From: Opitutia bacterium
Lineage (GTDB): Bacteria; Verrucomicrobiota; Verrucomicrobiia; Opitutales; Opitutaceae
Direction: 5' to 3'
Assembly: GCA_947474365.1 (NCBI GenBank)
Contig: CANJIU010000034.1
Span: 1 to 64,000 of the forward strand
DNA: 64,000 bases
Numbering within the stretch: the stretch's first letter is position 1; each line of letters starts with the position of its first letter. The notes below the pieces were generated by a model. The model was not told the DNA's origin and made no database searches. It saw nothing but the letters and a program-made list of their open reading frames with translations. The position numbers were made by a program, and so were the translations under genes. This document shows positions 17,152 through 57,403 of the stretch, piece by piece.

Positions 17152-17215
17152 ACTGGAGCCGCGACGCCCTGATCGCGGTTTCAATCCACGCGACGAGGGC
17201 GTCGCGTCCCCAATA
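17152..17215 (+). repeat. REP-like palindrome, copy A
   Basis: Arms CGCGACGCCCTGATCGCG (17160-17177) and CGCGACGAGGGCGTCGCG (17189-17206) are complementary apart from the CC/GA step, with an 11-nt loop. Flanking sequence (GGAGC before, TCCCCA after) matches copies B (48494-48590) and C (49398-49498). It is non-coding and part of a dispersed family in this window. Confidence 0.8.
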
Positions 17216-29900: not shown

Positions 29901-30085
29901 GCGTTTTCGAGATAAGCGCCGGTGCCGGCGTTGGCCACGCGGCCTGAAATCGTGCCCGTGTTGCCTTGGGCAAACGCAACGAGCGCGCTCGAGGTGAAAA
30001 TCGAAATCGCGCAGAGCAGGCGCGCGATGGAGAAGCAGCCGCTCAGGGCGGCGCCTTGATGATCTAACGCTGGTTGTGGCTTCAT
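26939..30085 (-). CDS. TonB-dependent receptor with carboxypeptidase-regulatory-like domain
   Basis: A 1048-residue outer-membrane receptor. A signal peptide (~1-39, ending VAFAQG) is followed by a carboxypeptidase-D-regulatory-like beta-sandwich (GTISGRVANAGTGAYLENAEI, ~42-118). Next comes the plug (ASNIKNVIAADAFGAVSEDNVGEFLKYMPGL, VRVRGMSSKYASVMIDGNP), then the barrel, ending in Phe (GVRGSF) as BAM substrates do. This architecture is common for oligosaccharide uptake in Verrucomicrobiota and Bacteroidota. Its place between kduI and a divergent LacI regulator suggests oligouronide import (inference). No SusD-like partner is encoded. Confidence 0.93.
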   Translation of the reverse strand: MKPQPALDHQGAALSGCFSIARLLCAISIFTSSALVAFAQGNTGTISGRVANAGTGAYLENAEIRVVGTDRVTTSVAGGLYVLTGVPAGERSISATYTGLDPISQSVSVPTGGTTTLDFNLTTRQYGEVLTLSAFVVGSTREGNAKAIVDQKQASNIKNVIAADAFGAVSEDNVGEFLKYMPGLTIDYVENDARTVRVRGMSSKYASVMIDGNPVASADVGIGTGRDFQFEQVSLSTVDTIELSKTPLADQPANSLAGSINVKSKSALNQKGRRINYNANLTFNEYAFQLGKTIGWDNQERRKALPGGSLEFSDTLMNGRLGVVVSANHTGTYVEQKIIAALGRTFNASAADNDTEIPRISSVNWQDGLKPTFRDALLVNLDFKATPDLILSLRTSYNFYNAPFHNRNWTFAAATTAASQPDAPSATSMRTIATNATDTTNTITTAGTNFRKYGATFLINPALTWKLTPTTSLDASTAYSRSYQWYDSDAEGYFNVVSARMRGVSWSYTSDRNQPNLQLRQNANRLDGTTDTRSFFDLANYNDSAAVTLAQRDSKDQSFNARADATMRLPQLRIPTVLKFGGYSGLLVKDIDTWTKNWTMNVDPTRPGFINLANYNDPYQPSFNKGETLTDVRGLVGSAASTDKWRLYDLFAKGNIDPLFGPQATAANATTPFFLTTAQAAANLRNRLQSMFDFKETIQSAYVMGTSKLTNKIQVVGGVRFESTDSQGRAYDDIGNVKATAQSGTTDQNNFNYIQARYGTRRTKTQSYDDFFPSAQVRYSASDNLVLRGAFYRSVLRPDPQNLSRSLTVSDNELAFSTANPDLQPEYASNYDARVEYYFEPVGVLSAGVFYKELKDAQISTTSLFSKGDIPQDILDLGYTEAGLLASGAQFTRVTNGGSAIVRGFELEYSQQLSFLPGIFRGLGVFANYTRTTTSNPGLFTGGSGVPKDSFNAGLNYTLRAFTGGVKFNWVGERILTVPGANGIGNYERERLQIDVNAAYKLHRYATLFMNIANLTAAPSYRYNNNVAFMNRHGTYGAKYTFGVRGSF

Positions 30086-37690: not shown

Positions 37691-40600
37691 CTATGGCCCC
37701 GCGGCGAATCCGTCTTCTGTCCCTGATTGCACGTGGTAGGTGCCGGTGCGGATGGATCCGTTGCGGGAGTTGTAAAGTTCGATCAGCCGCGTGAGTTCAA
37801 CCAGGGTAATCTTTCCGTCGCGATCGCTATCCATGGAATGGTAGTAGGGGAGTTGCACCGCGCTGTTTCCAGTTGAGACGAGGTCGGGAGCAAATCCGTC
37901 TTCGGTGCCGACTCGAACGAGGTATCGTCCGGTGCGGAGCGTAGTGAGACGGGTGTTGTAGAGGGAGATGCCCCTCGTGAGTTCGGACAAACTCACCCGG
38001 CCATCCCCGTCGGTATCGGCGGAATGGGCGGGCTTTACCACGAGCACGCCGGGCGCCATCGCGACGGTCTGGGGCAATCCGCCGACCGTGACCGTGGCGC
38101 TGGCCGGGAGAGAAAACGTGGTAACATCCCCGCCCGGGACTGCCACCGTGTAGGTGAAAATCACGGGACTGGGAGGGGGCGTGGTCCATTTCCATTTCAG
38201 CGTTTCCGTGGCGCCGGCAGCCGGCTTGATGTCGCCGGCCGTGCCACCGTCCGCAACGAGGCGCCACCCGGTTGGCAGCGTCACGTTCCACTCAAGGCCC
38301 GCGGCCGCGCCGACATAGTGGAGCGTGTTGGTGATCGAAATCGCTCCGCCCGGAACAAAGCCACCGCCGAGCATCGTTTGGCTGGCGTTGTTCGCTGCCG
38401 CGACGGTCAAGGTCGCCGGGGAAGGCGACGTCGTGCTGACGCCGTTTGTGACCGAAACGGTGTACGTCCCGGCATCGGCGGTTTGGGCGCGGGGGAACTC
38501 GATCAGGGCATTGGTTGCTCCCGGAAGTGGTAGTCCGTTTCGGCTCCACTGAAACGCGGCGGTCGGTCTGCCCACGGCTATGACACTGAGCGCCGCCGGT
38601 TGACCGGCGGTAACGGCAACGTTTTCCGGGGCCTGAACGATGAAGACCGGTATCGTCGCCGCCCGTTGCGAATCGACTTCGAAGATTTCGAGCATGGTCA
38701 GTCCGGTGGTGTTGCCAGCGCCGGTCACCTGTGCCGTATAGACTCCCGGGCCGGGTGGGGTGAATTTGATCGCGGAGTCCTTGCTTGTGGGAGACAGCGC
38801 CGTTGCGCCGACGCTTGCGGTGAAGGCGGCCAGGGTGCCATCACTTCCCCAATCGTCGTTGGCGGCGAGTTCGGTCGCGCCCGAAAACAACGCCAGCCGT
38901 GGATCGGGCAAACTGCCGGGCACCCCGAGGCTGGGGCCGATGGCACGAATGAGATAGCTCCGCCCCGGTGACAGCGCCACGATGTTGATCCCCTGGACCA
39001 AGGCATCCCCGCCCGGACCTGCCCGGGCCCTCGTGGCCAGATAGACCACGCGAGGCGTGGAGTCGGTATCGTAAATTTCCAGCGTCGCCACGCCCGTCGA
39101 ATTGCCGGACCCGGTGACGCGCACCCGATAGGTGCCCGGGTCAAAAGTCGCCAGCACCGCCGCATCCTTGCTTCCGATCCCAAACGGAGTCGCTCCCACC
39201 TGGGCGGTCGCGGTGGAGATCTGGCCGGCGTTGGCCGCCAAACCCCAGTCGTCGTTGGCCGCGACCGTCGCTCCGGTGGCCAGCGACTCGATGCTGAGTT
39301 GCGGATCCGCGAGTACTCCCGTGACGCCGAGGTCCGTGAGTCCCGGCCCCGCCACCCGCACGAGCATCTGCTTCGGAGTCGTGCCCTCCACCGTAAACAC
39401 CCCGGTCAGCGCCAGCGCGTCTGCGCCGACGTTTGCGCGCACCCTGGCGGCGATCATGCCGCGGGACTCAACCGTGAGCATGGCGGGCCCGCTGGTGAGC
39501 GAACCGCCGGGGCCGGTGACCATCACCGTATAGCTGCCGGCGTCAGACGTGTTGATTTTACCGAACGCGAGCGTCGCCAGATTTGCTCCGGTGATGACCG
39601 CTCCGTCCTTGTACCACTGGTACGCAAACGGCCCATCACCGGCCGCGGTCACACCGAGCGTGACGGCCCCCGCAATTACTCCCGCCTGACTCAGCGGAGG
39701 GGCGTTGATCACGGGTGGAGTGGCCTTGAGCGGCAAAAGTGCGATCGACCCGTTGGCTCCGATCAGGTAAAGGTTGTCGCCATAAACCACCGCGTCCGCC
39801 GTCGTATTGGCCACGCCGTGTTGCGCCGCCGTCCACGTCACTCCGTCGGACGACGTGGCGTAGTTGGTGTTGCCGGTGGTGAAGGCGAAGATCTTCCCCC
39901 CGCCGACCGCGAGCGATCGGAAGCCGGCGCCAAGCGGGTTGAGCTGCGGCGTCCAGGTGATGCCGTCGGTCGATGTCCTGATGCTCGCGCCTTCGCTCAC
40001 CAGCACGAATTTCCCGAAAGCATAAACCACATCGGTGATATTGCTCGTGATGCCGTTGGCATTGCGCGTGGTCCACGCCAGTCCGTCGGACGAGCTAAAC
40101 ACCGTGCCGCCGGCCCCGACGGTTACGTACACTCCGGCGCCGAACGCGGTCTTGAACAGGGTTTGGGTCGTCCCGGTGGTGACCGACGTCCACTCCGCGG
40201 CGTTGGGCGACGTGAGCATGCCGCCATTCCCTCCGAGCACAAAAAATCGACTGTTGGTGAAGCTCACCCCCGCGATGGCCGACAACACGCTCGGGGACCG
40301 AAGCCACGGCCCGCTCCCCGACGCCCAATCCATCGAAGAATAAATACTCCCCCCGGAAAATACCGCGACATAATTGCCTGCGCCGTAAGCGATGTCCACC
40401 GGCCGTCCGACATCCCCGAAGGGGAACGCCGGAGTCCCGATCGCGCCGTCGGGCGTAATCTTTACCGCTCCCTGCGAACCGACGATCATCAAGCTGTTCT
40501 CGCCCGCCGCGGCCGCGACAAGGTCGATCGCCGCCGCCGGCAGGCTTCGTGCCCAGGAGATGCCGTCGGCCGAGGTGAGGAGCGTTTCTGGAGCAGTCCC

Positions 40601-43600
40601 GGCCATCACGTAGCGACCGGCCCCGCGGGTGAAGGCGGTGGCCGCGGCGTTTTGAGTGATTCCAATGGTCGCTTCGGACCAGTCGAGCCCGTCGGTCGAG
40701 CGCCAGTATTTTCCGTCGGTCGAATCCAGGGTCGCGAGAAACCCGACATCGGTGAACTGGATTGAAGTAATGGATGCGACGGTATCAAGGGTCCGGCCGG
40801 TCCAGCTGGTGCCATCGGCAGAGATAAGGAGCCGCTTTCCACTCGCCGCGACGAATCGTCCAGCGCCGTAGGCCAGCATCGTGGCCGGCCGGGTGAGCAC
40901 GGCGCCGATGCTCCAGTTCGTTCCATCGGCGGAAACCAACGTGCGGCCACCGGTCCCGAGCGCGACGAATTTGCCGCCACCGAACACCACTGCTCCGAGG
41001 GCGTTGGCGATCACGCCGGGGACGACCGACCAGACCGCACCGTCGGTCGATGTCGCAATCAGTCCACCGTCTCCCACCGCCACAAACCGTCCCGCCGCGA
41101 AGGCAAGTGCGTTGAAATAACGGTCGTCCGCGCCGGTGCCGGGGTCGCGCTGGGTCCAAGTCGCCGCATCCGCCGAGGTCCACACCCCTCCGAAACTCGA
41201 CAGCGCCACGTAGGTACCGTTGCCGTGGGAAAACCCAACGACGGAATTGCTGACCCCCAGCCGCGACGTCGTCCACGCCGCCCCGTCACTCGAAGCGACG
41301 ATGGTGCCCCGCTGGCCGCCGCCGAGGAAGCGGCCGTTCAAGTAGGTCATCGCGTAGAGACTGTTGCCCTGCGGCAACGGCAGCCGCCAGCTCCAGTCCG
41401 GCGCCGGCGTCACCTGCTGCGTAAAGGGGTTTGGGCTCGCCGTCCCGATCCCGTTGCCGACGGTCACGCGATAGGTGCCCGCATCCGCCGGCTGCCAGTT
41501 GGGCACCCAGAAGGTGCGGTGGGTGGCGCCGGGGATCGCGACTCCGTTCTTCGACCATTGGTAGCCGACCGGGGTGGAGCCGGCGGTCAACGCTGGCGCG
41601 GACAGCACCCAGCGGGATCCGCTCTTGATCGCACCGCCGAATCCCGTGAGGTCTGTGGCGGCCAGCGTCGGCGCCGCGGGGGTCACCACCAGGGCGGCGC
41701 CGGCCGAATCAAACGTGCCACCGCCGTGCGTGACCCGGACGACATAATTTCCGGCGTCGCTGGGTTGAATCGACGTTGACGACAAACTCGGGCGGGTGGC
41801 CCCGGGAATGGCGGTGCCGTTCTGTAACCACTGATACGTGACGTTTTCTCCGCCGACGAGGGCGATGCTCAGGGTGACGGCGGTGCCGGCGGTCGCGGTC
41901 CGGCCGATCGGTTGGGAGAGAATGGTCGGACCCGAAATCGAGGTGGTCCGTACGAGACCGATCTTGGACACGCCGCCAAACTGAAGTTCGCCGCCGGCCA
42001 GCCACAGGCTCCCGTCGTCGTTCAGCGCCAGATCCACAACCGGCGTGGTGAGACCCAGGGCGGAAAAACTGGAGTCGAGTTCGCCGTTCGCGTGCGCCCG
42101 GAAGAGGTAGCGCAGTTCCGAACGGTCGTTGACCGTTTCGAACGGGCCGCCGATGAGGATCCGTCCCCTCGGCTCGAGCCGGAGCAGGGTGGGCGAAGCG
42201 CTGAGGGTGAACTGCGGGGCAAACGTGGCGTCCAATTCACCGCCTGCCTGCAGGCGCGCCATACGTGTGCGCGCTACGTCGTTCACTGCGAGAAAATCGC
42301 CGGCGAGCAACATCTTCCCGTCCGGCTGTTGCGCCATCGCGAGGATGGCATCATCGGTCTTGGACCCAAAGCTCGGATCCCGCGCGCCGTTGGGCAGCAG
42401 TCGCGCGATGAAATCGCTGGGCGTGCCGTTGATGCTCCGGAACGACCCGCCGATGACGATCTTGCCGTCGGCCTGGACCACCAGGCCGTTGATTTCTCCG
42501 GAGGGAATCGGGGTGAACAGGAAGCCGTTGTCGACGGTGCCGTCGGCCTTGACGACGGCGAGGCTGTCGCGTCGTGGGAGCGCTCCGGATACGCTCGGGG
42601 TGCGTTTGGTCACGACCAGCAGCCGGCCGCCGGGCATGGGCAGGACCCGATCGGGCGTGGCACTGATCGCGTCGCCGGGCCGGAAGGAGGTGTCCAGGCT
42701 CCCATCGGGATTGATGCGCGCCAGTTTGCTGATGACCGTCGAGCGGTAGCCGCCGATTTCGCCGGCGATGATCACTTTGCCGTCGGGTTGGACGAGCAGG
42801 TCGAAGACCGCGGAAGGAGCGCCGGTCGCCGCCGTGGAAAACGTCGGATCGAACACCCCGGTGGCGCTAAAGCGCGCGAGGGTGGGCGCGGGGAGGCCGT
42901 TGACGTAGGTGAACGATCCGGCGGCGATGATGCGACCGTCGTCGAGCCGGACGATTTTGCCGACGGTCGAGGGTTTCAACGTGCCGGGCGCCACCCCACC
43001 AGGGGAACTGCCATCCAGAACAGCGATGCCCACTATTCCGCGGTCATGGGCCAACGAGGAGCTGCCGCCAACCACCGACGCCCCGTTGCTGACGAATGCG
43101 ATGGCGGTGGCCGCCTGATCAAAGATCTGCGTGGTGGAATTATAGTCGGTTGCGCCGTTCGGCAGCAGTTGGGCCGTGGAGGTGGTGATGACCCCATTGA
43201 AACGGTTGAAGGCACCGGCGACATAGACCCGGCCGTCGCTGCGCACGTCGAGCGCGTACACGCTGGAGTTGAAGCCGTTTCCGGTCGACCAGTAGGGATC
43301 GATCTCTCCGTTGGCCAGGAGCTGGATGATTCGGTTGGCGGTGGTGCCGTTGTAGGAACCAAACGCGCCGCCGACGACGATCCGGCCGTCGAACGAACCG
43401 CGCAGGGCAAAGACGGAGTTGCTGAAGCCCGTACCAATCGCAAACGTGGAATCGAGGGTGCCGGCGTCGTTGAGCCGGGCGATGGCGCTGCTGGGCCGGC
43501 CGGCGATCTGCGTGAACGAACCGCCGGCCACCACGCCGCCGTCCGGCAACGCCAGCAAGGCGTAGACCGCGCTGTTCGGTGCCGGTGCGTACGCGGGATC

Positions 43601-46600
43601 GGTCGAACCGTCGGACCCGACCCGCGCGAGCCGAGACGGAAACGTCCCGCCGACCACCGCCCTGCCGTCAGGTTGTAGGGCCAGGGCATATACGCCCGTG
43701 AAGTCGGCCGTGGGGACAAACGCGGGGTCAAGGGAGCCGTCGGCGAGGAGACGGGCGAGGCCGGCGCGCGGCTGGCCGCTGATCGATTTGAAGATCCCTC
43801 CGATGAGTATTTTGCCGTCCGACCGTACGGCGGCGGTTTGGATTGCCCCGTCGATTGCCAACGGTGAGAGCGCCGCATCCCCGTCGCCGTCCGGTTTGAG
43901 CCAGGCGAGATTTCGTCCCGGGGTGCCATTGACCCGGCTAAAATCTCCCACGACCAGCACCCGTCCGTCGCCGGTTCGCACGAGGGCGTTCACGCTCCCG
44001 CCGGCTACCTCAAAGGCCGCCCCGACGGTTGGATCGATGCCGGTTATCTGTGGGTAGCTGGTCGGGGCGACTTGCACGGACACAGGTGACGACACGGTCA
44101 CCGAGAGTCCATCGGCGATCACCACGTCGTAGGCGCCGTTCATCGCCAACACCGCGGGACCGAGCGCGAGAATGGCGCCGGTGGCCCCGGGCAGAGTGGT
44201 GCCGTCGCGCCGCCACTGGTAGGTCAGCGCCCCGACGCTGCTGGCGGCGACCGAGAGCGTGAGGCCCTGGCCCGCGACCACCGACGCCGGCTTCGGGGCC
44301 GTGGTGATGACGGGCACCGGATTGATTCCGCTCAAGACCGCGACGTTGCTGGTGGCCGAGCCAAACGCATTCGTGGCCGTCACGGTATAGTTTCCGGTCT
44401 GGGCAAATTGGACCCCGGTGATCGTCAGCGTGGGCGCTGTTGCCCCTTCCAAGGCGACGCCGTTTCGGCTCCATTGCAGGGTAAGCGGCGAAGTTCCGAT
44501 GGCGGAAGCGGCGAACGTCGCCGTTCCTCCCGGCGCCACCGGTTGATTGGCCGGCTGGGACACAAACGAGGGCGCAACGGCCTGAACCATCGCAACGCTG
44601 CGGTTGCTGCCGGCGGCCACGGCGCTGGCGATTCCGAGGGTCGCGGGAATCGCCACCGAGGCCGGAAACGGAACGATCGATCCGTCCGACCGAAGCGCCA
44701 GGCTGTGGAAGTAACCGGCGGCCACCGCCACCACGTTTTTCAGGCCGGCGGGAACGGTGCTGTAATTGGATCCTGGTGACCCCCAGGCCACGACCGTGCC
44801 GTCGCTCCGCAACGCGAGCACGTGTGTGTCGCGGGCGGAGATCGCCGTGACGTTGGCGAGTCCGGCCGGCACGTCCAATTCGCCATGGTCTCCCCGTCCC
44901 CAGCTGCTGACCGTGCCGTCGGACTTCAAGGCGATGCCAAAGTTCGGTCCCGCCGCGACCGAAACCAAATTGGTCATGGCGGAGATGTTGGCGAGCGCAT
45001 CATAGTTCGTATCCCCCCACGCCACGACGGTTCCGTCGGCTTTGACCGCCAGACTTCTCCCGTCGGTGGCGGCGATCGCGACGACGTTGTTCAACCCGGA
45101 AGGCGGTGCGCTTTGAACGCTGCCGCCAAGTCCCCAGCGACGAACGATCCCATCAGCCCCCAACGCGAGACTGAGTGCGTTGCTGGCGGCGATCGCAACT
45201 ACCCCGGTCAAATCCGCGGGGACCGAAGCCTGGCCGAGACTGTTGCCTCCCCAAGCCACGACGGTGCCGTCGACCAGCAGTGCCAGGGTATGGTCACGGC
45301 CTTCGGCAATGGCGGCCACCCGCTTCGACGCGGTGACGGATTCTCCCACCGGACTGAGCGCGCCGTCGTTGGTCCAGGCCCTCACCGTCTGGTCGGCTTT
45401 TGCGACGGTGAGGTTGAAAACGCTAGTGGCCGTGCCGCCCGCAGGATGGGTCAGAATCACCTCGTAAAATCCCTGGTCGGCCGTCGAGACCGCCGCCAGG
45501 TTCAAGGTGGCCGACGTGGCTCCGGCGATCACCTGGGCGTTGTGCTTCCACTGATACGAGAGTGCCGGTCCCGCTTCGGGGATCACAGTGAAGGCGGCGG
45601 CGTCGCCTTCCCGGTGCAGACGGGACAGGGGCCGTGATACGATGACCGGCAGAGGCACCACGGCGACGGTGGCGGGATTGGAGGTCACAGTACCCAGGGT
45701 GTTGGTGACCACGACCGAGTAGCCGCCGGAGTCGGCGAATTGCGCGTTGGTGATGGTGAGCTGTGCGCTCCGACTGCCGGAAATGCTGCCGCCATCGGTC
45801 AGCTCGGTGGTTCCTTTTTTCCACTGGTAGGTGGGAAAGGGCACGCCGGTTGCCGTCACGGCCAATGTCACGGTTTTGCCCGCATTGATTGTCGTGCTCA
45901 CGGGCTGGGCGAGCACCGAGGGAACCGAGGACGAAGCCAGCGCCACCGAGTAAAACTCGCCTGCCGATACGGCCGCGACCTGAGTTAATCCCGAGGGCGG
46001 GGAGGGATCCGTTGTGGCACCGAGGGCCGGACGGAATTTTCCCCAGGTGACGACGGTTCCATCGGCTTTGAGCGCGACGCAGTGCTGCACGCCGGCAGCG
46101 ATCGCCACGACATTGGCAAGCCCGGCTGGGATATCGAACTGGCCGTTGTTGTTATTGCCCCAAACCACCACGGTCCCGTCTGCCCTCAACGCCATATCAT
46201 GAAAACCTCCGGCCGAGATGGCGGTGACGTTGGTCAAACCACTCGGAAGCGGCGCCACGAGACTCCCCCATGCCACCACGGTGCCGTCGGCCCTGAGGGC
46301 CAACGCGTCGGTTCTGGAGTCGATCGCCACCACGTCGGACAATCCGGCCGGAACGGCAATCGCATCGGCCGACCCCGTTTTCAGCGAAGCCACGGTGCCG
46401 TCCGCCTTGAGTGCCAGATCGTAACCGGCCGAGACCGCGACCACATCGTGCAGGCCGGTCTGAAGCGGGCCCCAGGAGTGTTGATTATCGCCCCAATGGA
46501 CAACTGTGCCGTCGGCTTTCAGCGCCGTCGTGTGATACGAGCCGACAGAAACAGCCACCACTTCCTTGAGACCGGCCGGCACATTCAACCAATCGCTGAC

Positions 46601-48460
46601 GCCGTTACCCCACGTTACTACGGCCCCGTTCGCCTTAGTCGCCGCAACGACCGCGCTTCCTGAAGAGAGTCCTACCACGTCCCCCAATCCCGTCGGCACC
46701 GACGCGGTGGCGTACGACGGAACCGCACCCCACGCCACGACGGTCGGCGCGGTCACCGGGAAATTCGCGACCTTGACCATGAGCACCGAACGCACCGACG
46801 CGACGGCGTTGCTGACCACGACTTCGTAGGTACCTCGGTCCGACCAGGTGACGCTCGGAACAATGAGGGTGGCTCCGGTTGCGCCGAGAATGTTTCGTCC
46901 ATTGCGCCGCCACTGGTAGGAGATGACGCCGGAGTCCGTGGCGGACGCGGTCAGCGTCATCGGCTGCCCCACGGATACCAACTGGCTCAACGGCCGCGAC
47001 GTAATCGTCGGTGGTGTGACCACGGTGAGCGCCACGGGGGTGGAGGTGACGCTACCGGCGGCATTGGTCAAAACGACCGCGTAACTGCCTGCATCGGCGC
47101 CGGTGGTCGGTGACACGAGGAGCTTCGCGGTGGTCGCCCCGGAGATGTTTCCCCCGTCCGCGAGAGTAACGCCGTTTCTGGTCCATTGATAGCGCAGTTG
47201 AAGCGGATCGCTGACCGTGACGGAAAAGGTGGTGGCCTGACCGAGCACCCCAATCTGGGCCACCGGTGGCGCCGTGATCGCAGGCGTTGTTATGGGCACC
47301 AGCGCGAGGTCTTTATTTCCGCCCGCCGCAATCGCGATTACGTTGTTCAACCCCGCCGGCACGCTGAGGGCCTGCCCGGAGCCGTTGTCTCCCCACGATA
47401 CCACTGTGCCGTCGGATTTCCGGGCGAGGGTGTGACGGCTTCCCGCCGCCACCGCGACCACGCCGCTCAATCCGGTCGGCGCCACTCCGCCCGGACTCGC
47501 TCCCCATGCGGCCAGCGTACCATCCGCCTTCACGGCCACGCTGTGAAAATCCCCCGCGCCGATCGCGACGACGTTGCCCAGCCCGGCCGGGACGGTCGAT
47601 TGACCTGAACCGGGGACTCCGCCCCAGGCGGAGACGGTGCTGTCCGCCTTCAGCACCAGGCTGTGATAGTTGCCTGCGGCCACCGCGACGACGTCGCCCA
47701 AGTTCGCCGGGACCACGGTCGACTCCAGAAAGTTTTTCCCCCACGCCACCACGGCCCCGTCGGACTTCAACGCCAGGACGTGAAAATTCCCGGCGGCAAT
47801 CGCAACGACGTTGATGAGACCGGGTGGGACGTTGGTTTGACCTTCGACGTTTCGGCCCCACGCGACCACCGTGCCGTCGCCTTTCAGGGCCACGCTGTCG
47901 TCCACTCCTGCGGCGAGGGCAACGACGTCGTTCAGACCGGTCGGCACAGTTGCCTTTGTCGAGTCGCCGTAGGTTCCCCACGCGACCACCGTGCCGTCGG
48001 ACCTTAGCGCCAGGGCGTGATTCGCGCCCTGGGCAATGGCAACCGCGTTGCCCAGACCAGCGGGGACGTCGGTCGCATTTGGCCACGAGACCACCGCGCT
48101 GGCACTCGGGGCGACGGTCAGGACGAAGACGGATTTGGCGGTGCCCGCGGCATTGCTCACCGTGACCTGATAGGATCCACTGTCCGAATACGTCGGGTTC
48201 GATAGGTTCAGAGTGGCACCGGTTGCACCCGCCAGGGTTTGACCGTTTCGCTTCCACTGAAAACTCAAGGGTCCCGCTCCGGTGGCGTCGACGGCCACGC
48301 TCACTGGCTGGCCGACGATCGTAATCTTGCTCAAGGGCGGTGCTGTAATCGCCGGCGCCTGGGCGAACAGAGAGGAAGTGAGACCGGCGAACAGACTGAG
48401 AACGGTTGACCAGCCACCAAGCGTGCGGCGGGGGCGAGCATGCGCAGGGCGGGGGCGCAT
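37691..48460 (-). CDS. Giant secreted multi-propeller/Ig-like protein (3589 aa)
   Basis: One uninterrupted frame. I start it at ATG 48460, which gives a signal peptide (~1-34, LFAGLTSSLFAQ). The 79 residues upstream translate a REP palindrome and are rejected. Domains by residue are: Ig 35-122; RCC1-type 7-repeat propeller 123-392 (unit like NVVAIAAGNFHVLALKSDG, then VVAWG); two Ig 393-572; second RCC1 propeller 573-842; two Ig 843-1020; third RCC1 propeller 1021-1292; two Ig 1293-1466; ~14 delta-60 repeats 1467-2175 (LPDGGVVAGGSFTQIAG); two Ig 2176-2355; Ycf48/sialidase-like block 2356-2913; Ig 2914-2999; two ANDDWG domains 3000-3263; Ig 3264-3355. A beta-rich domain and two calcium loops (DTDGDGRVSLSE, DSDRDGKITLVE) end the chain. 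No membrane anchor, PEP-CTERM or autotransporter barrel is seen. A surface adhesin or matrix protein is likely. Confidence 0.88.
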   Translation of the reverse strand: MRPRPAHARPRRTLGGWSTVLSLFAGLTSSLFAQAPAITAPPLSKITIVGQPVSVAVDATGAGPLSFQWKRNGQTLAGATGATLNLSNPTYSDSGSYQVTVSNAAGTAKSVFVLTVAPSASAVVSWPNATDVPAGLGNAVAIAQGANHALALRSDGTVVAWGTYGDSTKATVPTGLNDVVALAAGVDDSVALKGDGTVVAWGRNVEGQTNVPPGLINVVAIAAGNFHVLALKSDGAVVAWGKNFLESTVVPANLGDVVAVAAGNYHSLVLKADSTVSAWGGVPGSGQSTVPAGLGNVVAIGAGDFHSVAVKADGTLAAWGASPGGVAPTGLSGVVAVAAGSRHTLARKSDGTVVSWGDNGSGQALSVPAGLNNVIAIAAGGNKDLALVPITTPAITAPPVAQIGVLGQATTFSVTVSDPLQLRYQWTRNGVTLADGGNISGATTAKLLVSPTTGADAGSYAVVLTNAAGSVTSTPVALTVVTPPTITSRPLSQLVSVGQPMTLTASATDSGVISYQWRRNGRNILGATGATLIVPSVTWSDRGTYEVVVSNAVASVRSVLMVKVANFPVTAPTVVAWGAVPSYATASVPTGLGDVVGLSSGSAVVAATKANGAVVTWGNGVSDWLNVPAGLKEVVAVSVGSYHTTALKADGTVVHWGDNQHSWGPLQTGLHDVVAVSAGYDLALKADGTVASLKTGSADAIAVPAGLSDVVAIDSRTDALALRADGTVVAWGSLVAPLPSGLTNVTAISAGGFHDMALRADGTVVVWGNNNNGQFDIPAGLANVVAIAAGVQHCVALKADGTVVTWGKFRPALGATTDPSPPSGLTQVAAVSAGEFYSVALASSSVPSVLAQPVSTTINAGKTVTLAVTATGVPFPTYQWKKGTTELTDGGSISGSRSAQLTITNAQFADSGGYSVVVTNTLGTVTSNPATVAVVPLPVIVSRPLSRLHREGDAAAFTVIPEAGPALSYQWKHNAQVIAGATSATLNLAAVSTADQGFYEVILTHPAGGTATSVFNLTVAKADQTVRAWTNDGALSPVGESVTASKRVAAIAEGRDHTLALLVDGTVVAWGGNSLGQASVPADLTGVVAIAASNALSLALGADGIVRRWGLGGSVQSAPPSGLNNVVAIAATDGRSLAVKADGTVVAWGDTNYDALANISAMTNLVSVAAGPNFGIALKSDGTVSSWGRGDHGELDVPAGLANVTAISARDTHVLALRSDGTVVAWGSPGSNYSTVPAGLKNVVAVAAGYFHSLALRSDGSIVPFPASVAIPATLGIASAVAAGSNRSVAMVQAVAPSFVSQPANQPVAPGGTATFAASAIGTSPLTLQWSRNGVALEGATAPTLTITGVQFAQTGNYTVTATNAFGSATSNVAVLSGINPVPVITTAPKPASVVAGQGLTLSVAASSVGALTYQWRRDGTTLPGATGAILALGPAVLAMNGAYDVVIADGLSVTVSSPVSVQVAPTSYPQITGIDPTVGAAFEVAGGSVNALVRTGDGRVLVVGDFSRVNGTPGRNLAWLKPDGDGDAALSPLAIDGAIQTAAVRSDGKILIGGIFKSISGQPRAGLARLLADGSLDPAFVPTADFTGVYALALQPDGRAVVGGTFPSRLARVGSDGSTDPAYAPAPNSAVYALLALPDGGVVAGGSFTQIAGRPSSAIARLNDAGTLDSTFAIGTGFSNSVFALRGSFDGRIVVGGAFGSYNGTTANRIIQLLANGEIDPYWSTGNGFNSSVYALDVRSDGRVYVAGAFNRFNGVITTSTAQLLPNGATDYNSTTQIFDQAATAIAFVSNGASVVGGSSSLAHDRGIVGIAVLDGSSPGGVAPGTLKPSTVGKIVRLDDGRIIAAGSFTYVNGLPAPTLARFSATGVFDPTFSTAATGAPSAVFDLLVQPDGKVIIAGEIGGYRSTVISKLARINPDGSLDTSFRPGDAISATPDRVLPMPGGRLLVVTKRTPSVSGALPRRDSLAVVKADGTVDNGFLFTPIPSGEINGLVVQADGKIVIGGSFRSINGTPSDFIARLLPNGARDPSFGSKTDDAILAMAQQPDGKMLLAGDFLAVNDVARTRMARLQAGGELDATFAPQFTLSASPTLLRLEPRGRILIGGPFETVNDRSELRYLFRAHANGELDSSFSALGLTTPVVDLALNDDGSLWLAGGELQFGGVSKIGLVRTTSISGPTILSQPIGRTATAGTAVTLSIALVGGENVTYQWLQNGTAIPGATRPSLSSTSIQPSDAGNYVVRVTHGGGTFDSAGAALVVTPAAPTLAATDLTGFGGAIKSGSRWVLSAPALTAGSTPVGYQWSKNGVAIPGATHRTFWVPNWQPADAGTYRVTVGNGIGTASPNPFTQQVTPAPDWSWRLPLPQGNSLYAMTYLNGRFLGGGQRGTIVASSDGAAWTTSRLGVSNSVVGFSHGNGTYVALSSFGGVWTSADAATWTQRDPGTGADDRYFNALAFAAGRFVAVGDGGLIATSTDGAVWSVVPGVIANALGAVVFGGGKFVALGTGGRTLVSADGTNWSIGAVLTRPATMLAYGAGRFVAASGKRLLISADGTSWTGRTLDTVASITSIQFTDVGFLATLDSTDGKYWRSTDGLDWSEATIGITQNAAATAFTRGAGRYVMAGTAPETLLTSADGISWARSLPAAAIDLVAAAAGENSLMIVGSQGAVKITPDGAIGTPAFPFGDVGRPVDIAYGAGNYVAVFSGGSIYSSMDWASGSGPWLRSPSVLSAIAGVSFTNSRFFVLGGNGGMLTSPNAAEWTSVTTGTTQTLFKTAFGAGVYVTVGAGGTVFSSSDGLAWTTRNANGITSNITDVVYAFGKFVLVSEGASIRTSTDGITWTPQLNPLGAGFRSLAVGGGKIFAFTTGNTNYATSSDGVTWTAAQHGVANTTADAVVYGDNLYLIGANGSIALLPLKATPPVINAPPLSQAGVIAGAVTLGVTAAGDGPFAYQWYKDGAVITGANLATLAFGKINTSDAGSYTVMVTGPGGSLTSGPAMLTVESRGMIAARVRANVGADALALTGVFTVEGTTPKQMLVRVAGPGLTDLGVTGVLADPQLSIESLATGATVAANDDWGLAANAGQISTATAQVGATPFGIGSKDAAVLATFDPGTYRVRVTGSGNSTGVATLEIYDTDSTPRVVYLATRARAGPGGDALVQGINIVALSPGRSYLIRAIGPSLGVPGSLPDPRLALFSGATELAANDDWGSDGTLAAFTASVGATALSPTSKDSAIKFTPPGPGVYTAQVTGAGNTTGLTMLEIFEVDSQRAATIPVFIVQAPENVAVTAGQPAALSVIAVGRPTAAFQWSRNGLPLPGATNALIEFPRAQTADAGTYTVSVTNGVSTTSPSPATLTVAAANNASQTMLGGGFVPGGAISITNTLHYVGAAAGLEWNVTLPTGWRLVADGGTAGDIKPAAGATETLKWKWTTPPPSPVIFTYTVAVPGGDVTTFSLPASATVTVGGLPQTVAMAPGVLVVKPAHSADTDGDGRVSLSELTRGISLYNTRLTTLRTGRYLVRVGTEDGFAPDLVSTGNSAVQLPYYHSMDSDRDGKITLVELTRLIELYNSRNGSIRTGTYHVQSGTEDGFAAGP

Positions 48461-48493
48461 CCCGTTTGTTGGCCAAGCGAGGCCTGCATCGAG

Positions 48494-48590
48494 CACCATC
48501 GTGCAACTGCTGGAGCCGCGACGCCCTCGTCGCGGTTTGGAACCACGCGACGAGGGCGTCGCGTCCCCAGTGTCCGGAAATTGAAATGCG
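48494..48590 (+). repeat. REP-like palindrome, copy B
   Basis: Perfect 18-bp arms CGCGACGCCCTCGTCGCG (48517-48534) and CGCGACGAGGGCGTCGCG (48546-48563) surround an 11-nt loop. Conserved flanks are CACCATCGTGCAACTGCTGGA on the left and TCCCCAGTGTCCGGAAATTG on the right. It lies 34 bp upstream of the start of the giant gene, inside its promoter/leader region, and is the best-preserved copy in the window. Confidence 0.9.
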
Positions 48591-49077
48591 TCCCGCGCGG
48601 TATTGGACCGGGCTGTCGCGTCGACGGTCGATTCTCCAACCCTGTCGTCCAGAACGTCGGCAGACTCGGGGCGGCTGCCGAGAGCGGGGGCGGGCATCGC
48701 TTCACGGTGTCGGCCGGTACTTGGGCGTCAACCCCGCGTCTTCTTCCCTCCCGCCCCGATCTATTTCCATCGGGCGCGAATTCTAACCTGAGGAATCACG
48801 GTCACATCGGGCAATGGCGCAGGCGGGCGCCCTCCCCAGCGCCACTCATTTCCACGCGGCAGGCTTGTCCGTCGCAGGAGGATTATTCGCGCCACGCCGG
48901 ACAATTTTCCCCTCTACCCTTCGAAGCCACCAACGAGTTGCGGCGGTCGCGCACGTTTTTCCGCAACCTCAGGGCACTCGCCGACGTAATATGCGGACAG
49001 ACGCTACCGGAGCCGCGGAACCGCCTTTTCTGGAGGAGGTACCGCCGGCAGGCGCGGGGGTGGCACGACGGGTGTCA

Positions 49078-49397: not shown

Positions 49398-49498
49398 GCG
49401 CATCTCGATTTCTGGACACTGGGGACGCGACGCCCTCGTCGCGTGGTTCGAAACCGCGACGAGGGCATCGCGGCTCCAGCAGTTGCACGATGGTGATC
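49398..49498 (-). repeat. REP-like palindrome, copy C (inverted relative to B)
   Basis: CGCGACGCCCTCGTCGCG (49426-49443) pairs with CGCGACGAGGGCATCGCG (49455-49472) with one mismatch around an 11-nt loop. Read on the minus strand, its flanks (ATCACCATCGTGCAACTGCTG before, TCCCCAGTGTCCAGAAATCGA after) match those of copy B almost base for base, so homology spans ~95 bp. Confidence 0.88.
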
Positions 49499-49873
49499 AG
49501 TGCATGATTCGCCTGTCCAAAAAGCAGGCGGCGTCCCTTTGTGCCTCTTGGCGGCAATTTGCCTTGGCCGGGTGGGTAATCCCCAAACCGTTTTACCGCG
49601 AAAAAGCGCAAACCTGACCAGCGTGTTTTCGGCCATCGGCGTGGCGCTATAGGCGCCGGGAAAATCGATTTCGCGGTCGGTTGGCCGTTGAGGATTATCA
49701 CGAACTATTTTGCGCAGAATAGCCCGCCGCGCTATCCTCAAGCTCAACGACTGTCATCGCGAGGCAGGTGAGGGACAGCGCCGCTTTGGTGGTTGCGAAT
49801 CGTGCGACCTTTTTCTTCCCTCCCGCACCCCGTGGTAGCGGCCGCCAATTCGCGGTACCGGTCACGACTCACC

Positions 49874-52270
49874 ATGCGCCGTTTCCCGTTTCCCCTCTGT
49901 CTTGCTTTCGCCTCCGGGCTCCTGGCCGCCGAGGTGAAACCGACCGCGGACCAGAAGCCAACCGGCGACACCATCCGGCTCTCCGACTTCACGGTCACCG
50001 CGGATGATGATCGCGGCTATGCCGCCTCCGAGACGCTCTCGGGGAGTCGCGTCGCGACCAAGATCATCGACCTGCCCTACACGGTGAACGTCCTCACGAG
50101 CGAATTTTTCGCCGACTTCGCCATCTTCGATCTCAACGACACGCTCACCCAGATCGGCAGTTTCACCGGGTTGAGCGGCGGCGGTGGTTTCATGCTGCGC
50201 GGTTTCTCGTCGTCGTCGCAGCTGCGCGACGGCTTCTACCGCATCGGCCGTTTCGGGACGAGCAACGTCGATCGCATCGAGGTCATTAAGGGCTCCAACG
50301 CCGCCATCTACGGACGCACCTCGCCGGGCGGCATGCTCAACATGATATCCAAGGAGCCGCGCTCCCAACCGGGCTACAAGTTCACGTTCAACGGTGGCAG
50401 CTATTCCACCTTGCGCGGGGTGTTCGAGGCCACGGGACCGGTTGTCACAACCTCCCTCGGCAAGACCTCGTTTCTGCTCACCTCAAGCCAGGGCAACCGC
50501 TCCTACGACACGGCCTTCGCCCGCACGCGCAACCACGAGCACTACCTGGCGCTCAAGCAGCAGTTCAAGGACGGCTCGTCGCTTCTGATTTCGGCCGAGT
50601 ATTTTCTCCAAATCATCCACAGCCCACCCGGTGCGGCGCCGCTCGTGATCGACCAGAAGGGCACGACCACGGCCAACGACGACGTCGCGATCGGCTACGC
50701 CGCCAATCTCGCCAACTACAATCCCTACGGCCCTCATAGCGAATCCACCCGAGGCAATCCGTCGTTCAGCGCAATCTACGACCGGAAGCTGAGCGACGTC
50801 TGGAGCCTGCGGGTCGGCGCCAATTATTACCGGGCGCGTTCCTGGAAGGCCAACGACAACACGGGCTTCGGCTCCATCAACATCAACCCGCCCTCGGCGG
50901 CGACCGCGATCACGAGCACGCGCGGCAACCCGGTGAAACAAATCTATTCCGAGGACGGCGGCGGCTTTCAGGCCGATCTCCTCGCGCACACCTGGTTGTT
51001 CCACAAGTCCGTCGAGAGCCGCTCTCTGCTCACCCTCGATCTCAACGACTACTACCGCTGGGACCCCAACTGGACCTACGGCGCCATCACGAACGACCCG
51101 ACGATTGCCGCGTGGAATGCCACCGGTTCCGGTCGCATCGTCACGCTCAACCGCACCACGCTCGAGCCCGTCGCACCGCTCACCTATTTCCCGAACGACT
51201 GGCGCTGGGGCCACGAAATTCCCGGCCAGACGCGCAAGGGCCGGATCTCCGTCCTCGGCGGTCTGTTCCGCCAGCAGGTGGGATTTTTCAACAGCCGGCT
51301 GCTCGCCTTTACCGGGGCGCGCTTCGACGCCGTGCGCTTCCGCCACCGGGATTTCCTCACTGCGGTGACCTCGTTCAACGCCTTTCCCGGCTACACCAGC
51401 TACCAGAAGGGCGACCAGATCCGCCGGCTGGAGACCGCGCTCAAGCCCAATGTCGGAATCAATTACCGCCTCGTATCCAATATCCGCGTATTCGCGAACT
51501 ACAGCGAAAGCTACTTCGTCAACCAGGGCGACGGCCCCGCGCTCATCGCGGAGCCGAATTACGCGCCGGAAATGGCCGCCGGTTACGACTACGGTTTCAA
51601 GGGGGCCCTGTTCGACGAGCGCCTCACCTTCACCATGAGCGGTTTCTACGCGACACGGGAAAACGTCGGCGTCACGGAGGTGATCGAGTCGCCGATCGGT
51701 TCCGGCCGATACACCACGGCGACCCGGCGCGACGGCAACCAACTGGTGCGCGGCTTCGAAATCGATCTCAACTGGCGGATCGGCCAGTCAGTCAGCCTCA
51801 ACGGCAGCTGGGGCCACGTGAACTCGATCTACACGGACTTCGGTTCCGCGTTCCCGTTGGCGATCGGCCGGCGCGTGAACAACGTGTCGCCCGAAAACGG
51901 CAGTCTCTCGGCCCGCTACACGCCGCGGAACGGCGTCCTTCGCGGCTTCTCTGCCAATCTCGGCGTCACCTACGTGGCCCGCACGCCGACCGAGGCGCCC
52001 AACGCCGGCGACACGTACACGACGACCGCCACCGGCGCCCGCGTGCTCTCGCGCACGACCCGTCAGTGGGCGCTGAGCGTTCCCTCGTTCCACCTCTGGA
52101 ATGCCGCGATCCGCTACACGACGAGGGCGAACAGCCACACCAATCAGCAGATCGCGATCAATGTGAACAACGTCCTCGACCGCGACTACCTGAAGGTCGG
52201 AAAACAGAAGGGCGACCATCGCGCCGTTTATCTGACCTATTCCTTCGGTTCGGGCAGCCTGCGGAACTGA
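49874..52270 (+). CDS. TonB-dependent siderophore-type receptor
   Basis: A 798-residue outer-membrane receptor from ATG 49874, which opens the signal peptide (RRFPFPLCLAFASGLLAAE). The frame upstream to 49793 is ignored. The plug has VATKIIDLPYTVNVLTSEFF, FMLRGFSSSSQLRDGFY and VDRIEVIKGSNAAIYGRTSPGG. The barrel has typical receptor strands such as NVGINYRLVSNIRVFANYSE. This is the FpvA/FhuE-like layout without a regulatory N-terminal domain. It ends SGSLRN rather than in an aromatic residue, unusual for a BAM substrate; the final strand may end a few residues earlier at YLTYSFG. Ligand unknown. An esterase lies downstream, convergent. Confidence 0.92.
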   Translation: MRRFPFPLCLAFASGLLAAEVKPTADQKPTGDTIRLSDFTVTADDDRGYAASETLSGSRVATKIIDLPYTVNVLTSEFFADFAIFDLNDTLTQIGSFTGLSGGGGFMLRGFSSSSQLRDGFYRIGRFGTSNVDRIEVIKGSNAAIYGRTSPGGMLNMISKEPRSQPGYKFTFNGGSYSTLRGVFEATGPVVTTSLGKTSFLLTSSQGNRSYDTAFARTRNHEHYLALKQQFKDGSSLLISAEYFLQIIHSPPGAAPLVIDQKGTTTANDDVAIGYAANLANYNPYGPHSESTRGNPSFSAIYDRKLSDVWSLRVGANYYRARSWKANDNTGFGSININPPSAATAITSTRGNPVKQIYSEDGGGFQADLLAHTWLFHKSVESRSLLTLDLNDYYRWDPNWTYGAITNDPTIAAWNATGSGRIVTLNRTTLEPVAPLTYFPNDWRWGHEIPGQTRKGRISVLGGLFRQQVGFFNSRLLAFTGARFDAVRFRHRDFLTAVTSFNAFPGYTSYQKGDQIRRLETALKPNVGINYRLVSNIRVFANYSESYFVNQGDGPALIAEPNYAPEMAAGYDYGFKGALFDERLTFTMSGFYATRENVGVTEVIESPIGSGRYTTATRRDGNQLVRGFEIDLNWRIGQSVSLNGSWGHVNSIYTDFGSAFPLAIGRRVNNVSPENGSLSARYTPRNGVLRGFSANLGVTYVARTPTEAPNAGDTYTTTATGARVLSRTTRQWALSVPSFHLWNAAIRYTTRANSHTNQQIAINVNNVLDRDYLKVGKQKGDHRAVYLTYSFGSGSLRN

Positions 52271-54709: not shown

Positions 54710-57403
54710 TCAGAAGTCCACTCCCATCGTGCCGACGAACGTCCTCGGCTGGGCGAAGGTGTCGCGGTCGACGCGGTACTCGCGGGACGTGAGGTTCTTC
54801 ACCACCAGGCTGAAGCTTGTCTGGCGGTTGAGCAGCTTCATGCGGTAGCTGGCGTTCCAGTCGAAGCGGCTCCAGCTCTCGGACCAACGCAGGTTGTCGC
54901 CCTCGCGACGCGGCGCCATGTAGATGTAACTGAGGCCGGTCCCGACGTTTTTCAGCGGCCCCTGCGACCATTCGTAGCGGACGTAACCATTGCCCGAATA
55001 CTTCGCCGCGTTGGGCGTGCGGCGGCCGAGCAGCGAGAACGGCGCGTTGGCCCCGGTGTTGGCCGCGAAGGTCGTCGCGAGCGGCGTGGCGACGGTGGTC
55101 GCGTTGACGGCGACGATCTCCGTCTTGTTGAACAGGCCGCCGCCGCCGATCTGCAGCTCGCGCACCGGGCGGAGGTAGAAATCAAGGTCGAGGCCCCGTG
55201 CCTGCTCCTGGCCGCTGAGGTCGAGGAAGCCGACGGCGCTGTCGGGATCGGCGGCGGCCTTGCCGCGGGAGACGTTCTTTTTGTCGATGACGTAGTAGGC
55301 GAGGTTGATCATGGCCTTTTCGCCGAAGAGATCGGTCTTCACGCCATATTCGAAGCTGCGGCCAAACTCGGGCTCGAGCAGCGCGCCCCACGGCTTGGAC
55401 GCGAGATCGGGCGCGGGCAGGCCGTCCTGCTGGTAGCGGTTGAGCAATTGGGTGTCGCGCGCCGCGGTGCGGGCGGGTTGGAACGTCACGCGCGGGTTCA
55501 CCGACTGGCTGTAGAGCATGTAGATTGAAACCGGATTGGTGATGCGGTAGGAGATGCCGCCCTGCGGGGTCGTGCGCTTTCGCGCGCCCTCGATCGTGCT
55601 GGTGACGACACCGTCGAACGCGATCGGATCGATGCCGGCGTTTTTCGTGCTGTTGCGGGCGGAGACGTCGTCGAAGCGGCCGCCGAGGGAGACGCGTCCG
55701 CGGTTCTGGGCGAACGTGGCCGACCAGTTGGCGTAGACGGCATCGCTGGTGAAGCGCTGGTCGTTATTGGCGCCGTTGGTGGTGAAACCGGAAAGCGGCG
55801 TGAGGTTGCGCGCGGCGAACGCGTCGCGGGCCGCGGTCGAAGCGGGGCTGTAGATGTTGTACCAGTAGTCGACGACATTGGTGACCTGCGTCGTCGTACC
55901 GGGAACGGTGTAGAGCGTGGTGCCGGCGACGCCGAGGGCCGGATTGCGCACGAAGGTGCTGTTGTTTTCCCAGATGCGGTCCTCGTTGTGTTCGAAGCCG
56001 GTCAGGAGCGTGTGGTTGAGCGGCCCGGTCTTGAAACGGGTGATGAGATCCACCTGGCCATTGACGCGGCGTTCGCGGCGGTTGTTGCCGATCCAATTGG
56101 TGCGGCGCCAACCGCTCTTGCCTGGCGTGTATTGGAGCGTGGCGACGTTCGGGTCGTAGCGGTACGACAGCCCGTCGAGGAGACGCGTGTCAGAGAGCGG
56201 GTCGATTCCGGCGCCAGAGAAGGCGCCGCGTCCGGCAAAGTCATACGTGTGGCGGGCCTCGGGAAACGGATCGCCGCGGGTGTTGTCGAGATTCCAGCTG
56301 TTCAGTCCGCCGAGGCTCGCGATCGTGGGGCCGGTTTGCGTCCATGGATTGACGAGGCCGGTGCCGCCCTCGCGGATGCTGGAGCGGGCGCGGCGGTGGT
56401 AGGCAAAATTGAAACGCAGATCCATCATCGAGTTCAGCCGCTGGGTGGCCTCGAGTTCCCAGACGACGGGCTTGTAGTCGCGATAGGACGAGGGGCTGTC
56501 CTTGATGAAGCCGGGGCCGACGTCGTCGACCCACTGCGGGGTGTCGACGGGATCCAGCTTGTTGAACGGATAAAAATACGAGGGATCGCCGCCGCGGTTG
56601 ATCGCGCCGGTGGGCTTCAGGGCGAGACCCTCGGCCGGGCGGATGTTGTCGTGCGTGTTGCTGTAGCGGACGACGATGCTGGTCGTGGCAAACGGCTTCC
56701 ACTGGAGCATCGGGGCGATGGATACGCGGTCGAGGCTGCGCTGGCGTTCGCCTTTTTCCACGGTGTAATAGGTCGCACCGAGCCGGTAGTTAAAGGTCTT
56801 GGCGGCGTTGATCGGCCCGGTGGTATCGAGTTCCGCGCGGTAGAGTTCGTCACTGCCGGCGCTGAAGCGCAGGGTGGTTTTGCGTTGGGGCGATGGATTC
56901 TTGGTGATGTAGTTGATCACGCCACCGGGCTGAGTCTGGCCGTAGAGGAGGGCGGCGGGACCCTTGAGTGTCTCGACGCGCGCGATGGAGTTCATGTCCG
57001 GTGTGGTGAGCCCGCGGACGCCGTTGCGCATGGCGGCGGAACTGTCAAAGCCCCGGATGTTGGCCTGCGGCACAAACTCGTTGAAGGTGCGGGCGGTGCC
57101 GGGAATCACGTCGAGTACCTGGTCGAGATCGAAGAGCGCGCGGTCGATCATCAGCTGCTCGGTGACGACGTTCATCTGCATCGGCAGGTCGCGGATGGCG
57201 ACATTCGTGCGCGTGGCACCGAGCGTGTTGGCGGCCTGATAGCCGTTGTCGTTGTCGGAGACGACCTGGAAGGGTGAGAGCTGGATCGCTTCGTCCCTGG
57301 CGGCAGTCGGCGACGGTGCCGGGGCGGTTTGGGCGAGGGCAATGGTTGTGCTGCCGGCAAATGCGATGCACAACACGCTGAACAGGAGACGCAGGGATTT
57401 CAT
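54710..57403 (-). CDS. TonB-dependent siderophore-type receptor
   Basis: An 897-residue outer-membrane receptor. The signal peptide (LRLLFSVLCIAFAGSTTIAL) is followed by a TonB-box-like segment (AIQLSPFQVVSDNDNGYQAA). The plug has VAIRDLPMQMNVVTEQLM, FVPQANIRGFDSSAAMRNGV and LKGPAALLYGQTQPGGVINY, then a 22-strand-type barrel ending VGTMGVDF with a terminal Phe. It lacks the carboxypeptidase-like domain of the receptors at 26939 and 58249. Its start is divergent from the small membrane protein at 57679. Ligand unknown; siderophore-type by plug sequence, but sugar use is known for related receptors in this phylum. Confidence 0.93.
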   Translation of the reverse strand: MKSLRLLFSVLCIAFAGSTTIALAQTAPAPSPTAARDEAIQLSPFQVVSDNDNGYQAANTLGATRTNVAIRDLPMQMNVVTEQLMIDRALFDLDQVLDVIPGTARTFNEFVPQANIRGFDSSAAMRNGVRGLTTPDMNSIARVETLKGPAALLYGQTQPGGVINYITKNPSPQRKTTLRFSAGSDELYRAELDTTGPINAAKTFNYRLGATYYTVEKGERQRSLDRVSIAPMLQWKPFATTSIVVRYSNTHDNIRPAEGLALKPTGAINRGGDPSYFYPFNKLDPVDTPQWVDDVGPGFIKDSPSSYRDYKPVVWELEATQRLNSMMDLRFNFAYHRRARSSIREGGTGLVNPWTQTGPTIASLGGLNSWNLDNTRGDPFPEARHTYDFAGRGAFSGAGIDPLSDTRLLDGLSYRYDPNVATLQYTPGKSGWRRTNWIGNNRRERRVNGQVDLITRFKTGPLNHTLLTGFEHNEDRIWENNSTFVRNPALGVAGTTLYTVPGTTTQVTNVVDYWYNIYSPASTAARDAFAARNLTPLSGFTTNGANNDQRFTSDAVYANWSATFAQNRGRVSLGGRFDDVSARNSTKNAGIDPIAFDGVVTSTIEGARKRTTPQGGISYRITNPVSIYMLYSQSVNPRVTFQPARTAARDTQLLNRYQQDGLPAPDLASKPWGALLEPEFGRSFEYGVKTDLFGEKAMINLAYYVIDKKNVSRGKAAADPDSAVGFLDLSGQEQARGLDLDFYLRPVRELQIGGGGLFNKTEIVAVNATTVATPLATTFAANTGANAPFSLLGRRTPNAAKYSGNGYVRYEWSQGPLKNVGTGLSYIYMAPRREGDNLRWSESWSRFDWNASYRMKLLNRQTSFSLVVKNLTSREYRVDRDTFAQPRTFVGTMGVDF

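Follow-up and report, generated by a model that had tools for sequence, protein, structure and literature searches.

A giant exported propeller mosaic of an Opitutaceae bacterium ends in a double EF-hand tail common to many unrelated exported proteins

Introduction

A 3,589-residue exported protein encoded by an Opitutaceae bacterium raises two questions: what it is built from and where, once outside the cell, it would stay. Its gene lies in a stretch of 64,000 nucleotides (the window, analysed as a whole) of a genome of 10.3 Mb in 275 contigs. The original prediction described an exported mosaic in which three propeller classes sit on Ig spacers, and profiles and repeat parsing support that picture. 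The best clue to the location of the protein, however, is a feature that the prediction did not mention, a C-terminal tail shared with other exported proteins of the same genome.

Results

The gene and its surroundings

The giant gene runs on the minus strand from an ATG at 48460 (37691..48460), which gives exactly the 3,589 residues predicted. From this start the protein begins with a signal peptide by sequence, as had also been claimed (MRPRPAHARPRRTLGGWSTVLSLFAGLTSSLFAQA; 48359..48460, minus), with a basic start, a hydrophobic core and an AQA-type end. The first ATG of the frame would yield a longer product (37691..48697, minus; 3,668 aa). Since a palindromic repeat at 48510-48570, between both candidate starts, lies upstream of it, the gene more probably starts at 48460 (or 48499). 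With 66% GC, a frame of 3,668 codons would stay open by chance with a probability of about 1e-39, and the long plus-strand ORFs opposite the gene are shadows. The open frame and homology along its length confirm a real protein-coding gene.

The palindrome is a dispersed, REP-like element, found also at 17161-17205 and 49427-49471, with the arm GCGACGCCCTCGTCGCG and a loop of ~11 nt; the arm has seven matches against 0.23 expected. The genes beside the giant ORF, named by eye, are CTP-synthase-, KdsA- and FabH-like on one side and TonB-receptor-like on the other, and they offer no clue. Long ORFs resembling TonB-dependent receptors, also named by eye, lie at 26939-30085, 49793-52270, 54710-57403 and 58249-61416; having several of them in the window suggests a possible uptake of glycans or other polymers.

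Domain architecture of the giant protein

Domain borders come from Pfam and NCBIfam profile searches plus repeat and profile parsing; residue numbers such as 3433-3550 refer to the 3,668-aa version (first ATG), and all domain coordinates are on the minus strand. The signal peptide is followed by Ig domain 1 (48116..48355; Pfam profile and repeat parsing) and by three RCC1 blocks, A (47288..48085), B (45932..46756) and C (44582..45403), each recognised by profile and repeat parsing and made of ~7 units, about six full and a split seventh. Pairs of Ig domains, delimited by repeat parsing like all those that follow, lie between A and B (Ig 2-3, 46772..47284), between B and C (Ig 4-5, 45404..45922) and after C (Ig 6-7, 44069..44572). 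Next come a delta-60/DUF5122 block (41948..44035; Pfam, NCBIfam and repeat parsing), Ig domains 8-9 (41411..41929), a block of Asp-box repeats (39728..41392), Ig domain 10 (39470..39715), two ~130-aa repeats detected by self-alignment and without a Pfam match (38663..39466; residues 3078-3345), and Ig domain 11 (38402..38641). The chain closes with a beta-sandwich of the cohesin/CLIPPER type (38048..38401; residues 3433-3550) and a double EF-hand tail (37694..38032; residues 3556-3668).

For the whole protein, Pfam E-values are 8.7e-100 for Ig_3, 1.2e-93 for DUF5122, 7.6e-92 for RCC1_2 and 6e-92 for WD40_RLD, and the NCBIfam delta_60_rpt match has E 7e-55. In bits, RCC1_2 reaches 299.6 (cut-off 22), WD40_RLD 309 (cut-off 150) and TIGR02608, the delta-60 family, 182.7 (cut-off 76.5). 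With profiles above cut-off and ~7 units per block, the three RCC1 blocks of seven repeats that had been predicted hold, and so does the count of 11 Ig domains. The delta-60 block is likewise present, but 11 units are clearly detected rather than the ~14 proposed. What had been described as a Ycf48-like block of ~558 residues does correspond to ~555 aa of repeats with the motif S-x-D-G-x-x-W (9-11 repeats); Ycf48/PSII_BNR, however, is absent from the Pfam matches of the protein at E <= 0.1, and the likeness to Ycf48 exists at the repeat level only. Regular spacing by Ig pairs is true of most blocks, but Ig 1, Ig 10 and Ig 11 are single. The two ~130-aa repeats, the beta-sandwich and the tail had been overlooked. 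A module similar to the ~130-aa repeat ends RCC1 proteins C-terminally in relatives that lack the tail (L166, L169, L175).

The propeller stack among related proteins

RCC1 units had been taken to be rare in secreted bacterial proteins, a view that is not supported for this clade: RCC1_2 is present in 33/57 related genomes and 16/31 genera (0/14 control genomes), and the genome of the window itself holds 98 matches in nine long ORFs. The combination of three propeller classes on one ORF was seen only in the window protein among ~100 loci, a sample biased towards tailed proteins and with some loci truncated at the flank. Two classes occur together on 14 other tailed ORFs of the same sample, including ORFs of 6,960 and 6,856 aa. 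With RCC1 and two-class stacks common in the clade, the three-class stack stands at the extreme of a whole family of such exported proteins. The RCC1-like, delta-60 (TIGR02608/DUF5122) and Asp-box propellers are all direct profile or motif matches to known types; the difference is that the giant protein joins all three with 11 Ig domains on one chain. Our search of the literature, with incomplete open-access coverage, found nothing specific on this domain stack or on the tail.

Could the giant act on its own as a secreted adhesin or matrix protein, without an attachment module and unusual mainly for its propellers, as the original prediction implied? Its Ig stalk and its three propeller classes, unique in the sample, would fit. 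Against this reading, RCC1 and two-class stacks are common in the clade and the tail is shared by ~27 proteins of the genome, and we consider it very improbable. With fibrillar adhesins the protein has in common a long Ig-type stalk, and its sandwich is best matched by their CLIPPER domain (PMC12617251); unlike them, it has no recognised adhesive or anchoring domain. The statement that the protein has no anchor needs a corresponding amendment: there is no membrane or sortase anchor, but there is a conserved C-terminal module common to those ~27 proteins.

A C-terminal tail on unrelated exported proteins

The tail measures ~112 aa and consists of two repeats of ~55-60 aa, each an EF-hand-type loop and a helix, then an extra stretch, RTGxY...TEDGFAxGP. 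Its signature is ...ELTRVIELYN...RTGxY...TEDGFAPGP-stop; the window protein itself ends EDGFAAGP. Each repeat has a 12-residue loop with D1 and E12 and then a helix, as in an EF-hand, with only the exiting helix. Over 56 tail copies, D1 is found in 56/56 for both loops and E12 in 56/56 and 54/56.

A profile search of the genome found the tail at 31 places, 25 of them nearly complete; the ORFs concerned measure 268-6,960 aa, and identity to the window copy is 49-63%. At least part of it is carried by 30 ORFs, and 27 of these stop at the tail or no more than 13 aa beyond, the exceptions being C7, C45 and C26; 22 have -GP as their last residues. Counted over 26 tailed ORFs of this genome, 23 stop within 17 aa past the tail, mostly exactly at -GP. 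Across the 113 distinct tailed ORFs at all loci examined, 97 end within 15 aa of the tail and 13 have it well inside. The tail is mid-chain in C7 and C45 of the window's genome, G000 (L053, L054), as well as in L067 and L069; in C7 and C45 it is followed by sequence that looks, by eye, Calx-beta-like and CHRD-like.

The cargo of the other carriers is diverse: M10 matrixin and M11 gametolysin peptidases, CCP_MauG peroxidase, beta-lactamase and FGE-sulfatase folds, YHYH, CBM96, BspA-type LRR (LRR_5), RCC1 and DUF5122. Most have a signal-peptide-like N-terminus according to a simple hydropathy scan, which is a heuristic and not SignalP. Eight carriers lie on a single contig, C23, at 20-82 kb.

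Median identity between copies is 61% in the tail and 31% in the preceding 118 aa. Median pS is 0.68 and median pN 0.29; with synonymous sites mostly saturated, the copies are old and under purifying selection, and recent duplication is ruled out as the source of their identity. The one recent duplication among them is a pair of similar RCC1 plus delta-60 giants with nearly identical tails, G000:C131:1369-13416 (4,016 aa) and C68:126-11150 (3,675 aa). Conservation extends through the last two residues and includes surface-type positions. A PDPL motif (LAxPDPLxV) is common at the junction between sandwich and tail in most loci, and the window protein has APGVL there. The Asp-Pro bond of the motif might be processed, but self-cleavage at PDP before the tail was set aside: the window protein has APG at this place, and the sequence ahead of many other tails is different again.

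Structure and family of the tail and sandwich

AlphaFold2 models were confident both for the tail alone (pLDDT 94.5, pTM 0.84) and for sandwich plus tail (pLDDT 92). Foldseek returned no PDB match for the tail model at E <= 0.001, and the only VIA-align rows were two dockerins, both weak (4fl4_A, Z 2.5; 5k39_B, Z 2.1). The lack of a good PDB match for a predicted structure does not prove a new fold. By sequence, Pfam (2025), NCBIfam (2026) and PDB sequences gave generic EF-hand similarity only; XopAW matches were discarded as such, being far below the family cut-off.

Dockerin type I (PF00404) and the GC-type dockerins of NF041540 are likewise C-terminal tandem modules of calcium loop and helix on many exported proteins. 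The tail differs from them in its longer repeat with the extra RTGxY..EDGF, in its weak fold match and in having E at loop position 12, where dockerins usually have D. It scores 15.2 bits against PF00404 (cut-off 22.9), a family without any match in the window's genome at E <= 0.001, and a canonical dockerin was accordingly rejected. NF041540 ('GC-type dockerin domain-anchored protein') does not match the window tail, and one distant relative reaches 24.6 bits (cut-off 29). We conclude that the tail is probably a C-terminal docking or sorting module, a kind already known, and that its identity as a dockerin is not supported by profile.

The sandwich (3433-3550) is most similar to the CLIPPER/DUF11 domain of fibrillar adhesins, PDB 9ifr (Z 12.8, rmsd 2.6 over 118 aa; PMC12617251). 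It also fits cohesins (Z ~12), and pilin and integrin domains equally well, and PF00963 cohesin does not match the window protein. Because all these domains match alike, the modelled sandwich is best called a common CnaA/cohesin-like fold. It is tempting to suppose that the dockerin-like tail pairs with a cohesin-like sandwich, either on the same chain, as a cap or in a head-to-tail polymer, or on another protein, which would build an extracellular complex. The sandwich directly precedes the tail in ~70% of tailed ORFs, its cohesin fit and the two dockerin rows point the same way, and a true cohesin plus dockerin-like protein is encoded 11 kb from the C23 cluster of carriers. However, ~30% of carriers lack the sandwich, its other structural matches are as good, and the tail-dockerin match is weak (Z 2.5) and fails at profile membership; we regard this pairing as unlikely.

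A second possibility is that the tail serves chiefly for secretion and is read by a dedicated outer-membrane translocon, after which the protein would be released or bound to the surface otherwise. The type IX system reads a C-terminal domain of its substrates, and T9SS type A (TIGR04183) and PEP-CTERM (PF07589) tags resemble the tail in that one C-terminal module serves many unrelated cargo proteins; the window tail differs in having neither homology to them nor a transmembrane helix. Its place at the very end of unrelated cargo proteins that begin with signal peptides, and the absence from it of any hydrophobic segment or membrane anchor, favour such a role. The tail scores 13.2 bits against TIGR04183 (cut-off 23), though, and with no match to that family in its own genome a T9SS tag was rejected. 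The PEP motif, transmembrane helix and basic end of PEP-CTERM are not found in the window protein, which ends EDGFAAGP, and PEP-CTERM exists alongside the tail as a system of its own, with 20 sites in the genome. Given also that no machinery was found, that RCC1 proteins of relatives are apparently exported without the tail and that internal copies exist, a pure secretion signal seems improbable to us.

A second tail and the exchange of C-terminal modules

A second tail type consists of a PF00963 cohesin and then a dockerin-like pair (DMNGNGVVSITDWVKVGRIVAGLD...DPLTPAGGPTAPNP), also C-terminal (G000:C23:7835-9574, L140; and L142, L143 and L144). Among 57 genomes it is confined to G000, G003 and G025, where it is 93-95% identical; its cargo is M10, RCC1 and Ig, and Pfam Dockerin_1 misses it. 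G003 has it in place of the main tail at the C-terminus of one M10 peptidase and of two RCC1 proteins. In relatives that lack the main tail, some RCC1 proteins end in a Gly-rich stretch, a hydrophobic helix and a basic end, sorting-signal-like, and others in an LSNLLEYA-type domain or the ~130-aa repeat. C-terminal modules thus swap on the same cargo classes, as expected of address tags. Cohesin was rejected as the obvious receptor of the main tail: Pfam cohesin occurs in only 3/11 tail-positive genomes of the genus (Fisher p = 0.056, with genome size as a confounder), and those proteins that are clearly cohesins have a dockerin-like tail of their own.

Spread of the tail

The tail is found in 11/27 genomes of the genus and 0/30 other relatives of the same sample. 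Across 388 sampled genomes from the phylum, a narrow tail profile detected it in 7 and a broader one in 11, most strongly in Opitutaceae; the complete, single-contig genome among the positives has at least 12 copies. Named tail records are mostly MAGs labelled Opitutus, Opitutaceae, Opitutae or Verrucomicrobia, plus one Hydrogenedentota MAG (G432, 7.5 Mb; L134, L179-L198). The latter has at least 151 tail matches, counted as matches in one genome and not as checked proteins, some of them sharing one ORF (L186 has several). All 22 ORFs read there, in 20 stretches, stop within 7 aa past the last tail; the tails often follow a long Glu/Gly-rich (EGEGEG) linker, and several ORFs have a clear signal peptide.

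Such a distribution bears on a further alternative, in which the tail would be no more than a passive cap stabilised by calcium. Domain shuffling would have spread it, and its carriers would have neither a partner nor an address in common. EF-hand-like loops are common stabilisers of exported proteins, and the patchy distribution and the internal copies are what a cap would lead one to expect. On the other hand, surface-type positions and the last two residues are conserved over old copies, and the tail is abundant in one distant genome, C-terminal in every ORF read. We consider a passive cap improbable.

Discussion

The order of domains, the position of the tail, the great age of its copies and the purifying selection on them, its intact calcium loops, the diversity of its cargo and its spread to a second phylum can all be read from sequence comparison. 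We lean towards the hypothesis that the giant protein is an exported binding scaffold of the surface or matrix, held there by a tail that it shares with other proteins as a docking or sorting tag. A Sec signal peptide would export it, and it would then pass the outer membrane. Outside the cell, the tail would fold around two calcium ions and be recognised either by a single receptor for all tagged proteins or by outer-membrane machinery, in a dockerin-like interaction or as a T9SS-like signal; the five or more beta-propellers, held apart on Ig spacers, would be the binding part, with polysaccharide or other cells as candidate ligands. We prefer this shared-tag reading because the tail ends many unrelated exported proteins, is old yet conserved, and has at least 151 matches in one genome of another phylum. 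Several observations weigh against it: no receptor or export machinery has been identified, 13/113 distinct tailed ORFs carry the tail internally, its spread is patchy (11/27 genus genomes, 0/30 other relatives in the sample), and Pfam cohesin is limited to 3/11 tail-positive genus genomes.

Related arrangements have been proposed before. The 'planctosome' of Planctomycetes is a proposed non-cellulosomal cohesin/dockerin complex (PMC6461901), and a cellulosome-like, non-cellulosomal cohesin-dockerin complex was proposed for Cloacimonadota (PMC8542988). Like the arrangement suggested here, both would be extracellular and hold peptidases by C-terminal calcium modules; they use recognised cohesin and dockerin domains, whereas the main tail described here is without a recognised receptor. 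More tentatively, and with rather less confidence than in the scaffold itself, we propose that the tail may belong to an undescribed calcium-dependent protein-addressing system common to Opitutaceae and Hydrogenedentota, in which one receptor or export machine would mount peptidases, peroxidases and giant propellers on the surface or in an extracellular complex.

Conclusions

C-terminal tags reveal which proteins a cell displays on its surface, and entire sorting systems have been discovered through them: PEP-CTERM/exosortase, GlyGly-CTERM/rhombosortase and T9SS. For the giant protein, the shared tail turns location into a testable claim. If the hypothesis is true, the tag would point to a new receptor or translocon and could yield a new calcium-dependent docking pair. 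A tag that is unnamed in Pfam and NCBIfam would then make much of the surface proteome of the poorly cultured Opitutaceae and Hydrogenedentota readable from sequence.
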